From the NCBI GenBank assembly GCA_022627515.1, contig JAKEGK010000063.1:1-45157 (forward strand): a DNA stretch of 45,157 bases. Reading direction: 5' to 3'. Source of the DNA: Gammaproteobacteria bacterium (GTDB lineage Bacteria; Pseudomonadota; Gammaproteobacteria; SZUA-152). Below the pieces are notes generated by a model. It saw only the letters and a program-made list of their open reading frames with translations, was not told where the DNA came from and did not search any database. The position numbers and the translations under genes were made by a program. Below are positions 26,771-30,764 of this stretch, one piece after another (the first letter of the stretch is position 1; each line of letters opens with the position of its first letter).

Positions 26771-27682
26771 TTAGCGCGTTGTTTTCAAACGGCTGCCGGC
26801 CAGAAATTGCCAGGTGCGCACAATGACGATCTCATCATAATCCTTGCTGATTTCTTCCGGGAAACGCGCAAAGGGCGCCGCCATCTTGACGATGCGCACC
26901 GCGGCATCGTCCAGCACTTTGTGGCCGGAATACTTGGTGATCTTGACGTCCTTGATGGAGCCGTCGGCGGTAATAGTGACCGCCATTCGTACATCGCCGG
27001 TCAGACGCGCCCGGATTGCTTCATCGGGAAAATTCAAGGTGCCGATACGTTCCACTTTTTTGCGCCAGGCTTCTTCATAACTGGCAAAGCGGTATTCCTT
27101 GGTTTGCGCGGTCACGAATTTCTTTTTCGGCTGATTCGACGTGACTTTGTGGGCAACATCCACCTCGGCGCTTAACCGCGCGATTTCTTTGCTTTGTTTC
27201 AGTAACTGCTTGGAGGTGAGGTTTTTCTGCTCGGTGGGCAAATCCGGTGACGCCTCCTCCAGTGCGATCTTATGTTCGGAACTGCGGGTCGCCGTGAGGA
27301 TTTCCTTGCGCTGCGGATTGGGTGACGTGGCTATTTCCGTCTCAGGCACCACTTCCGTGACTTCACCCAGTTCGCTGGTAGGTACCGAACTTTCAGAAGG
27401 GGAACTGGATTTTTCCACTTCCTGGCTGTCGCCTCCGCCTTCCTGATTCGCCTGCGCCAGAAAGTCAGCGTCCTCGATTTTCTTGTCGGTCTGCATTTGC
27501 ACCAGGGTGATTTCAAGTCCAGGCAATTTTTCCGGGCGTTTGGTGTGGTCATATTTGGAAAAACTCACACCCAGTATAATTAAACTGTGCACAACGATGG
27601 CGAAAAAAATCGTCAAGCCCAACCGGTCACCGGAGGTGATGTTGGGTGATAACCGGGGAGGTGTAGCAGCGACAGCGGTCAT
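26771..27682 (-). CDS. tonB: TonB family energy-transducing protein
   Basis: The 303-residue protein has a single N-terminal membrane anchor near residues 22-42 (LGLTIFFAIVVHSLIILGVSF), a long charged, Ser/Glu-rich periplasmic spacer instead of the usual proline-rich one, and a C-terminal TonB domain: YEEAWRKKVERIGTLNFPDE, GDVRMAVTITADGSIKDVKI, SGHKVLDDAAVRIVKMAAPF. TonB couples the ExbBD proton motor to outer-membrane transporters. No exbB or exbD is nearby, as for the tonB copy at this locus (between gshB and yqgE) in Pseudomonas. That copy has been connected to twitching motility. Its start overlaps the Gx protein gene by four bases. Confidence 0.9.
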   Translation of the reverse strand: MTAVAATPPRLSPNITSGDRLGLTIFFAIVVHSLIILGVSFSKYDHTKRPEKLPGLEITLVQMQTDKKIEDADFLAQANQEGGGDSQEVEKSSSPSESSVPTSELGEVTEVVPETEIATSPNPQRKEILTATRSSEHKIALEEASPDLPTEQKNLTSKQLLKQSKEIARLSAEVDVAHKVTSNQPKKKFVTAQTKEYRFASYEEAWRKKVERIGTLNFPDEAIRARLTGDVRMAVTITADGSIKDVKITKYSGHKVLDDAAVRIVKMAAPFARFPEEISKDYDEIVIVRTWQFLAGSRLKTTR

Positions 27683-28227
27683 TGCAGGATCTTCGAAAGC
27701 GATTCAGTATTTGAATTCAAATTAGTCACAACCCGAGCGGCGATAACACCACTCACCATGCCAAAAATCAGCGCCATTGTCATCAGTACCGGCAATAAAT
27801 GAAACAGCGCCTTATGCGGAATAAATAACCAGTACGCCGCCAAAAATTGTCCCAGCATGTGCATTAATGCACTCACCACGCCAAATCCTACCGGTCCCGC
27901 CGCAAGCGCTGGCAGTTTACGGGACAGGGTTTGCACCAATGCCAGCCCAAATAAACTACAGCAAGCGCCTGAAAAACTTAAAAAAAAAGTCGGTGTCAGG
28001 AAAGTACCAATCAACAGGCTGCCCACCAGCACACGTAACATGCTGATCCATACCGCAACGCGCCAACCCCAGCTTAGCAAGGCCACCAGTGTAACCACAT
28101 TCGCCAAACCCGGTTTCACGCCGGGAAGCGGCGTGGGCAGTGCGCTTTCGATGATATGTATCGTGATTGCCAGCGCGGCCAGCCATGCGATGATATGGTC
28201 TTTTTTCGAACTTTCTATCAGCGACAT
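27679..28227 (-). CDS. Gx transporter family / heptaprenyl-diphosphate-synthase component-I-like membrane protein
   Basis: The 182-residue protein is almost entirely hydrophobic, with about five to six membrane segments, and has the family pattern IESALPTPLPGVKPGLANVV near the N-terminus, then LRVLVGSLLIGTFLTPTFFL and GVVSALMHMLGQFLAAYWLF. Databases call this family both Gx transporter and heptaprenyl-diphosphate synthase component I; it resembles ECF S-components, and a synthase role is doubtful. It lies between a NusG-II protein with apbE upstream and tonB downstream (4-base overlap). The trio Gx/NusG-II/ApbE recurs with extracytosolic flavin electron-transfer systems, as far as I recall, so a flavin- or quinone-linked role is the best inference. 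Confidence 0.82.
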   Translation of the reverse strand: MSLIESSKKDHIIAWLAALAITIHIIESALPTPLPGVKPGLANVVTLVALLSWGWRVAVWISMLRVLVGSLLIGTFLTPTFFLSFSGACCSLFGLALVQTLSRKLPALAAGPVGFGVVSALMHMLGQFLAAYWLFIPHKALFHLLPVLMTMALIFGMVSGVIAARVVTNLNSNTESLSKILQ

Positions 28228-28296
28228 TACCGCATTTATTCCCTCAATGCCCTCATCCTTGCTGACATTATATTATTGGTCAGTAATTCCGGAAAT

Positions 28297-28695
28297 TTAG
28301 AAATTCATGGTATCAAATCGTGGATCAGGTCCCAGAATTCGTACACTGACCGTATTTGGCACACAGGCAACGATTTCACCACTATGCTGAATCCAGCCTG
28401 TATGGATACACTGCTTAGTATCACAAGGGGATGAAACAAAACGGATTTTGCCGTCATGGACTTCCAGCTGGCTGATTCCTAACGCCCCTTTTACCTCGTA
28501 AAATCCGTCTTCGTACAAATCAATCGTGCGCCAATGCTTGCCGGCTATGGCAATTACGGCCTGATTGCCGTAAATCGATTGTCCCCAGTAGACCACATAC
28601 AATGTGGCAACCAGGATCAGCGCCAGAACCAGGAGAAGCCGGTCACCTGCGGTGAGTTTTTGTCCAAGCATCGGAGATAAAGTATTCGCGGGCAC
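28297..28695 (-). CDS. NusG domain II-containing membrane-anchored protein
   Basis: The protein (~132 residues) has one N-terminal membrane helix (RLLLVLALILVATLYVVYWG) and an extracytoplasmic NusG-II-type beta domain with the family's cysteine pattern SSPCDTKQCIHTGWI and GEIVACVPNTVSVRI. It is not a transcription factor: the KOW-like fold alone is shared. The frame opens with GTG at 28695, two bases after apbE ends; ATG 28671 is an alternative without a clear ribosome-binding site. It follows apbE and precedes the Gx membrane protein, a recurrent association suggesting a small redox accessory complex. Confidence 0.82.
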   Translation of the reverse strand: MPANTLSPMLGQKLTAGDRLLLVLALILVATLYVVYWGQSIYGNQAVIAIAGKHWRTIDLYEDGFYEVKGALGISQLEVHDGKIRFVSSPCDTKQCIHTGWIQHSGEIVACVPNTVSVRILGPDPRFDTMNF

Positions 28696-28696
28696 G

Positions 28697-29776
28697 CTAG
28701 TTTAGCGGCTCACTGTAAATAACCTGAGGTATGGGTTTGATGTCGAAATATATGCGCTCTTTTAAATTGGGCGTCATATAAATTGTGCCGTCAGCGGCCA
28801 CTACCATCACGCCGCCCACACCCATCGCCTTCGCCACCTCATACCATTTATCAACACCTGCAATAAAGATGGCGGTTGAAGCAGCGTCAGCACGGCCGGC
28901 TTCTGAGTCAAACACGGTAACAGACGTGACCCCTTGTGCGGGATATCCGCTGTGCGGGTCAAGAATATGGTGATAACGCTTTCCCTGATACTCGTAATAA
29001 CGCTCATAGTCGCCGGAGGTAACAATACTTTCATCCGCGAAGGTGTCCACCGACCCCAACACGCCTTCACCCCGTGGATTGCGGATACCAACACGCCAGG
29101 CGCGTTCTCCATGTTTGCCGATCGTACGCAAATTACCTCCGGCGTTGACGATCGCATTGGCAATCCCCATTTCTTTTAAATGTTCTATCGCTAAATCCAC
29201 AGCATAGCCTTTGGCGAATGCACCAAAATCCAGGCGCACGGCGGGATTCGTGGATTTCAATTGTACCCCATCCAACACCAGATCCCGCATGACCGGCTTT
29301 TGATCCACCAGTCTTTGGATCGCTTCTTTGTCCGGCGGCGGTCCTTTGGGCAACTCATCGGCGGCAAATCCCCACAGCTTGATCAATTGACCGATGGCAG
29401 GATTGAAACGGTCGCCACTGAGTTCCGCTAATCTGGCGCCGTCCCTTATCAACGGAAGAATTGATGGGCTGAGGGTAAACGTCTCTCCAGTAGATAATAG
29501 TTCATTGATGCGCGACAATCCGCCGGGTTTCCACGCATGCCAGGTTTGATGCATATAATTGATATCGTCCGTAATGGCAGCTACCGCCTGCCGACCGGTT
29601 TTCTCGTCAACGCCCCAGATTTTAACTTCTATGAGTGTGCCGAATCCCAGGAATTGCTCGTAATAGACACCCGGCGCGCGGCTACAGGAAATCAATAACA
29701 AGCATAAAAAGGAAAACAAGCCGCGCCGGAAAAACTTTGTGACAGGCAGTTTTGCTGATGCGGCTTTGTTTAACAT
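28697..29776 (-). CDS. apbE: ApbE, FAD:protein FMN transferase (lipoprotein)
   Basis: ApbE covalently attaches FMN from FAD to Thr/Ser of periplasmic or membrane redox proteins such as RnfG and NqrC. I start at ATG 29776 because it leads into a lipoprotein signal (FFRRGLFSFLCLLLISC); the frame runs on upstream into gshB without a family match. The 359-residue protein has GFGTLIEVKIWG, LDFGAFAKGYAVD, VNAGGNLRTIG, YHHILDPHSGYPAQG with the catalytic His/Asp, and GRADAASTAIFIAG (metal-binding Asp). No obvious flavinylation target gene lies in the window. It begins 37 bases after the gshB stop. Confidence 0.93.
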   Translation of the reverse strand: MLNKAASAKLPVTKFFRRGLFSFLCLLLISCSRAPGVYYEQFLGFGTLIEVKIWGVDEKTGRQAVAAITDDINYMHQTWHAWKPGGLSRINELLSTGETFTLSPSILPLIRDGARLAELSGDRFNPAIGQLIKLWGFAADELPKGPPPDKEAIQRLVDQKPVMRDLVLDGVQLKSTNPAVRLDFGAFAKGYAVDLAIEHLKEMGIANAIVNAGGNLRTIGKHGERAWRVGIRNPRGEGVLGSVDTFADESIVTSGDYERYYEYQGKRYHHILDPHSGYPAQGVTSVTVFDSEAGRADAASTAIFIAGVDKWYEVAKAMGVGGVMVVAADGTIYMTPNLKERIYFDIKPIPQVIYSEPLN

Positions 29777-29813: not shown

Positions 29814-30764
29814 TCAACGCGCCTTGATTTTCGCTGCGATGGCATCCATAAGTTGGCCAGCGATATCCAGGCCGTAAATCCCGTCCAGTTCGCGAATACA
29901 GGTTGGGCTGGTGATATTGATTTCCGTAAGATAGTCGCCGATAACATCAAGCCCGACAAACATCAGGCCTTTCGCTCTCAAGGTTGGCGCCACTTGTTCG
30001 CAAATCCAGAAATCCCGTTCCGACAATGCAACACCGATACCGGTGCCGCCGGCGGCCAGGTTACCGCGAGTTTCGCCTTTTGCCGGGACACGCGCCAGGG
30101 CATAGGGCACGGGCTTGCCATCGACCAGCAATATGCGTTTGTCTCCGTATTGGATTTCCGGAATAAAACGCTGCGCCATGACGAAGCGAGTTTGATGTTC
30201 TGTGAGGGTTTCAATGATGACATTAGTATTCACATCATCTTCCGTTACACGAAAGATGGATGCCCCACCCATGCCATGTAATGGCTTTAAGATGATGTCT
30301 TTGTACCGTTGTAAAAATTCCAGAATCTGCTGTGGATTTCGTGTCACCAGTGTGGGCGCGGTGCATTGCGGAAACCAGGCAGTGGACAATTTTTCATTGG
30401 CATCACGCAGCGTCTGCGGTTTATTCACTACTAAAACCCCCTCGCGTTCAGCGAGTTCAAGGATATAAGTAGCGTAGATGTACTCCATATTAAACGGAGG
30501 ATCTTTGCGCATAAGGATGACATCAAGATCACCAAGCGGCATCGGAATCGAGTCACCCAATTCAAACCAGCCCGCCGGATCATCCTTTACTGATAGTTGC
30601 CGCACATTCGCCATTGCCGTGCCATCAAGAACCCACAGATCATTCAGTTCCATGTAGGAAACCGGCCAACCCCTGGCTTGCGCGGCAAGCAACATCGCGA
30701 AGGTACTGTCTTTCTTTATCTTGATCGTCGCGATGGGATCCATCACGACACCCAGTTTCAACAT
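29814..30764 (-). CDS. gshB: Glutathione synthetase
   Basis: GshB ligates gamma-glutamylcysteine and glycine. The 316-residue ATP-grasp protein shows the N-terminal LGVVMDPIATIKIKKDSTFAM, VLMRKDPPFNMEYIYATYIL, IILKPLHGMGGASIFRV (ATP-binding Lys and Gly loop), GETRGNLAAGGTG and the metal-binding YLTEINITSPTC. It begins the long minus-strand run that continues through apbE, tonB, yqgE, ruvX and the pyr genes. In Pseudomonas it lies between pilG and tonB, the same neighbours as here apart from the ApbE/NusG-II/Gx insertion and the 1-kb spacer. Confidence 0.97.
   Translation of the reverse strand: MLKLGVVMDPIATIKIKKDSTFAMLLAAQARGWPVSYMELNDLWVLDGTAMANVRQLSVKDDPAGWFELGDSIPMPLGDLDVILMRKDPPFNMEYIYATYILELAEREGVLVVNKPQTLRDANEKLSTAWFPQCTAPTLVTRNPQQILEFLQRYKDIILKPLHGMGGASIFRVTEDDVNTNVIIETLTEHQTRFVMAQRFIPEIQYGDKRILLVDGKPVPYALARVPAKGETRGNLAAGGTGIGVALSERDFWICEQVAPTLRAKGLMFVGLDVIGDYLTEINITSPTCIRELDGIYGLDIAGQLMDAIAAKIKAR

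Follow-up and report, generated by a model that had tools for sequence, protein, structure and literature searches.

EetB, a membrane protein encoded between gshB and tonB in the analysed stretch of gammaproteobacterial DNA (the window, 45,157 nucleotides), co-evolves with a divergent ECF-T protein whose gene lies far away beside fimV. The reading that we favour, with somewhat more confidence than doubt, is that the two proteins form a FAD exporter which feeds the lipoprotein ApbE encoded in the same block as EetB, probably without ATPases. The physical complex of EetB and the T protein, FAD as its cargo, the direction of transport and the absence of ATPases are what we infer from the evidence below, and the ATPase-free step is the least certain part of the model.

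A preliminary description of this DNA had placed three genes, for an ApbE, a NusG-II protein and a Gx-type membrane protein, between gshB and tonB. Analysis with Pfam and NCBIfam profiles confirmed the three genes and assigned the families of the block as follows.

29814-30764, reverse strand: gshB, glutathione synthase (NF003573, 5.3e-140; TIGR01380, 1.8e-133), the upstream boundary of the block.
28697-29776, reverse strand: apbE, lipoprotein FAD:protein FMN transferase (PF02424, 3e-75, 253.6 bits).
28297-28695, reverse strand: eetA-like NusG_II gene with a GTG start (PF07009, 1.3e-23).
27679-28227, reverse strand: eetB, ECF-type S subunit family (PF07456, 1.7e-36, 125.9 bits against a cut-off of 30).
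26771-27682, reverse strand: tonB, the downstream neighbour (PF03544, 3e-14).

The spacing between apbE and the NusG_II gene is one base, and the overlap of the Gx protein gene (eetB) with tonB, which had also been noticed before, comprises four bases (27679-27682). Of 24 genomes of the order, 22 carried PF07456, and a large majority of the 50 loci compared within the order and the class preserved the gene sequence apbE, NusG_II gene, eetB, tonB, indicating that the block is not a chance arrangement and that the three genes do not occur independently across genomes. The earlier statement that these families recur together in flavin loci agrees with a published survey, in which eetB was co-localised with eetA in 3,328 genomes and with apbE in 2,169 (PMC9973259). 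Only apbE, eetA and eetB were found between gshB and tonB; the genes for Ndh2, quinone synthesis and a flavinylated carrier that belong to the Gram-positive EET locus are absent there. Five loci (L102, L105, L106, L108 and L111) showed eetB with no recognisable apbE or NusG_II neighbour, and eetB still adjoined tonB in four of them.

The N-terminus of the window ApbE ends in LLLISC, in which a lipobox (LISC) was read from the sequence, and the protein matched solved FAD:protein FMN transferases (for example 6nxi, 5e-37); its site of action is expected to be the periplasm. The NusG_II protein has one hydrophobic helix followed by a domain with three cysteines, and the residues Cys91, Cys96, Cys111, Trp101 and Pro113-Asn114 were 93-100% conserved among 45 relatives. 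We take EetA to be the NusG_II family, which fits the conserved pairing of the genes. Since deletion of eetA in Listeria was without phenotype (PMC9973259), a role of the NusG_II protein as an anchored accessory, maybe in hand-over, is a guess.

The structure model of EetB, built from a single sequence, reached a pLDDT of 58.7, which is too low for fold comparison. Its family, PF07456, bears the old Pfam name heptaprenyl diphosphate synthase component I. The Listeria member, EetB, is an FAD-binding ECF-S subunit resembling RibU that is needed for FAD export to ApbE, and flavinylation of PplA requires it together with the ECF-T subunit FmnA and EcfA/EcfA′ (PMC9973259). By analogy, the window EetB is a predicted FAD exporter subunit. 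Helix 1 of the protein contains Ala14-x3-Ala18, each alanine being 96% conserved among 51 relatives, and Ala-x3-Ala in helix 1 of S subunits is a proposed motif for S-T docking (PMC3246461); fusions of EetB with ECF-T exist in other bacteria (PMC9973259). Taken together, the identities of EetB, ApbE and NusG_II suggest that the three genes make up a kit for FAD supply and flavin attachment. The idea of a flavin-handling module is supported, and is largely explained by this published work on FAD export by EetB in Listeria (PMC9973259); the right context had been given and the transporter left unnamed.

The same description had proposed that the block is coupled to TonB expression. The adjacency is real and conserved, with eetB immediately preceding tonB in 47 of 50 loci, and a functional link between the two is putative. 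The eetB stop overlaps with an in-frame start of tonB in only 15 of 48 loci, and translational coupling is therefore no general feature. As to the designation as a redox module, the block encodes no electron carrier and is better described as a module for cofactor supply and attachment. An alternative reading, in which electrons pass over a flavin and the cysteines of the NusG_II protein in a small envelope redox module coupled to TonB function, would draw on the three strongly conserved cysteines and on the persistence of the tonB neighbour across loci, but we consider it highly improbable: the block lacks both a flavinylated carrier and a membrane electron conduit, PF07456 is a transporter family (PMC9973259), and the tonB-start overlap is confined to the minority of loci given above. 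TonB was also considered as a flavinylation target and rejected. The FMN_bind match inside TonB_C, the sole one in the neighbourhood, was below the cut-off, in agreement with the earlier remark that no flavinylation target is visible nearby.

Candidate targets were found on other contigs. The search of the genome for FMN_bind gave three proteins above the cut-off, two RnfG and one NqrC/RnfG-like protein, and all of them carry the D-x-x-T-G-A-T motif (DQVTGAT in RnfG1, DQFTGAT in RnfG2 and DTLTGAT in the NqrC/RnfG-like protein); a search for FMN-binding domains with an ApbE motif had been suggested earlier. RnfG1 and RnfG2 belong to two separate rnfABCDGE operons and the NqrC/RnfG-like protein to a third, partly assembled Rnf/Nqr-like operon. 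This third operon (G000:C57:1-3228), which is cut by the contig end, encodes in order an FMN_bind protein scoring between RnfG and NqrC, two Rnf-Nqr membrane subunits and a FAD/NAD oxidoreductase; the operon has the appearance of a hybrid or of an uncommon Rnf/Nqr variant. The two RnfD copies (L011:5980-7017 and L012:4332-5417) differ at the likely flavinylation site, with SGAA in one and SGAT in the other, and the RnfD with SGAA may lack covalent flavin.

No apbE was found beside the two Rnf operons or the Nqr/Rnf-like fragment in the stretches read, so that a distant rnf/nqr operon with its own apbE, which had been named as a competing explanation of the ApbE targets, did not turn up there. 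The genome contains one more apbE, which immediately follows a DUF3570 gene (L003:9879-12140, contig C69 of the same genome). DUF3570 proteins are ApbE substrates in the cases tested (PMC8238504), and the one beside this second apbE has one TGAS motif. Because the second apbE adjoins a target of its own, the window ApbE most likely serves Rnf and Nqr by elimination, and covalent flavin is predicted on the RnfG and NqrC-like targets from their motifs.

An ECF-S exporter is expected to need an ECF-T protein. The PF02361 (CbiQ) search of the own genome returned none at E values up to 1, a result that, taken alone, suggested a solitary EetB. Weak CbiQ matches in sister genomes, however, all represented one conserved protein, about 235 residues long, and a search with the alignment of this family detected the T protein in 23 of the 24 genomes of the order. 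The own genome was among them, so that the suggestion drawn from the CbiQ search no longer stood.

G000:C60:2888-3619 (contig C60 of the own genome): T gene, beside fimV (family alignment search, 2e-61).

The T gene follows fimV and in most cases precedes truA and trpF. In none of the loci read are the T and EetB genes neighbours; the partner is unlinked and hence was beyond the view of the preliminary description, which was confined to the window. Most members of the T family fall below the Pfam and NCBIfam cut-offs and are unannotated, and the family profile matched PDB chains of EcfT at about 4e-8. The structure model of one member (L149, used in place of the own-genome copy; 59 sequences) had a pLDDT of 88.9, and its twelve best matches in a structure comparison were all ECF T subunits (Z 12.8-15.4 over 209-232 residues), followed by a match at Z 5.8. 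Judged by this modelled fold, the fimV-linked protein is an EcfT. The T protein was also observed in Methylophilaceae (Methylotenera and Methylopumilus) at the same fimV-truA site (L196, L200, L202-L204, L206, L207, L210-L213, L216 and L217). Isolates that carry the T gene include Thioalkalivibrio denitrificans ALJD and Methylotenera oryzisoli.

The distribution of the two proteins was compared in 370 gammaproteobacterial genomes. Both were present in 94 and neither in 265, and the 11 discordant genomes comprised 6 with EetB only and 5 with T only (totals, 100 with EetB and 99 with T). Some of these exceptions may be false, since two of the five T-only matches are short fragments at E values of about 1e-6 and one of the EetB-only cases concerns a 55-residue fragment below the cut-off. 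Kinship was controlled for by shuffling T within the varying families, which were tabulated by hand, and by means of an rpoB tree of 100 genomes. The observed concordance was reached in 6 of 200,000 within-family shuffles. On the rpoB tree, EetB changed 22 times, T 21 times and the joint state 24 times, compared with a shuffled mean of 47.7 for the joint state; in 14 supported independent pairs differing in EetB, T was concordant in about 11 and opposed in 0 (P value, about 0.001). Thus, EetB and T co-evolve, and their co-occurrence is not explained by linkage, since the two genes lie apart in all loci read.

These data bear on the alternative that EetB acts solo like solitary BioY and that the fimV-linked T protein serves another S subunit which shares the distribution of EetB by chance. 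Biotin and B12 are moved without an ECF module by BioY and BtuM, respectively (PMC11109136), and the separate location of the two genes in every locus read would suit such an arrangement. The co-change on the 14 independent pairs with none opposed, the retention of the Ala-x3-Ala docking motif in EetB and the EetB/ECF-T fusions found elsewhere (PMC9973259) nevertheless make it improbable. The retention of a T protein likewise speaks against an S subunit that acts wholly alone.

The T family differs from known T subunits in the contacts for the ATPases. T subunits contact the ATPases through two three-residue signatures with a central arginine (consensus Ala-Arg-Gly) in cytoplasmic helices; they are said to exceed every other feature of T components in conservation, and subgroup II transporters become inactive when these arginines are changed (PMC3246461). 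Both signatures were lost in 106 of the 107 gammaproteobacterial T proteins, the corresponding columns being gapped or unrelated, and the tripeptide occurred anywhere in the signature region in only one of the 107. Both signatures were present in the reference EcfT from Syntrophomonadaceae (L221). The six best candidates of each of the 370 genomes were scored with TIGR04520, which represents a single ECF ATPase subfamily and was the only one of the sister models TIGR04520 and TIGR04521 that was used; no ECF ATPase above its cut-off was found among them. The genes conserved around T and EetB in the loci read likewise included no recognisable ATPase gene. The loss of both signatures, together with the lack of a canonical ECF ATPase in this search, suggests that export is probably ATP-independent.

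An ordinary ATP-driven ECF exporter as in Listeria, with an unlinked and diverged ABC ATPase that was missed and that is gripped by a different surface of T, is the strongest competitor of ATP-independent export by EetB and T, and we regard it as unlikely rather than remote. FAD export in Listeria needs EcfA/EcfA′ (PMC9973259), ATPases are part of every characterised ECF module, and some of the 370 genomes do contain ABC ATPases with TIGR04520 scores of up to about 230 bits. The best TIGR04520 matches, however, also occurred in many EetB-negative genomes, and none of the candidates reached the cut-off; the near-complete loss of the ATPase-contact signatures and the lack of a recognised ATPase gene near T or EetB speak against this reading as well.

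In the model that we propose for export by EetB and T, EetB docked on the distantly encoded T protein would load cytosolic FAD, turn over against T and release FAD outside the inner membrane. The lipoprotein ApbE would then split FAD and attach FMN to a threonine of the RnfG proteins, of the NqrC/RnfG-like protein and perhaps of RnfD, with the NusG_II protein (EetA) as an anchored accessory that perhaps takes part in the hand-over. Consumption by ApbE would keep FAD low on the outside, so that export could run downhill without ATP.

The block itself represents, in a Gram-negative bacterium, the published association of eetA, eetB and apbE. It resembles the Listeria system of EetB, FmnA, EcfA/EcfA′ and FmnB in the EetB S subunit, in the joint occurrence of eetA with an ApbE gene, in the genomic presence of an ECF-T and in the predicted job, the supply of FAD for extracytosolic flavinylation (PMC9973259). 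In contrast to Listeria, the T gene here is unlinked and its product lacks the signatures for ATPase contact, the search described above revealed no canonical ECF ATPase, and the host is Gram-negative, with no EET genes and with Rnf/Nqr subunits on other contigs as the targets. Clostridial rnf clusters with apbE, eetA and eetB likewise point to Rnf as a client of an EetB-fed ApbE (PMC9973259), whereas the kit described here lies outside the rnf operons. Transport without ATPases has also been proposed for solitary BioY and BtuM (PMC11109136, PMC3246461), but those are importers that need no T, while the T protein here has been retained and evolves together with its presumed S subunit. EcfT/CbiQ of known structure (PDB 4huq, 5d3m and 5x3x) share the fold over the whole length, yet the T protein is only about 14% identical to them and has lost the signatures. 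What sets the proposed exporter apart is the unlinked, signature-less T partner. In the literature searched, which left subscription papers mostly uncovered, this partner appears to be undescribed, and no earlier description of a T subunit at fimV-truA or without an ATPase was found.

Extended beyond this genome, the findings raise the possibility, which we advance tentatively and with less confidence than the exporter itself, that an ATPase-free ECF derivative exports FAD to the periplasm in roughly one in four of the gammaproteobacterial species sampled. EetB and an unlinked EcfT-fold protein devoid of motor contacts would constitute this derivative, an importer type turned into an exporter driven by consumption of its cargo. 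The Rnf and Nqr pumps depend on the delivery of FAD to periplasmic ApbE, the route of which is known for few bacteria. A candidate FAD exporter can now be named for many Gammaproteobacteria, including the unlinked partner that annotation has missed, and a likely function is provided for the conserved gene that lies unannotated between fimV and truA. The system may also offer a natural test case for an ECF T subunit that works without ATPases.
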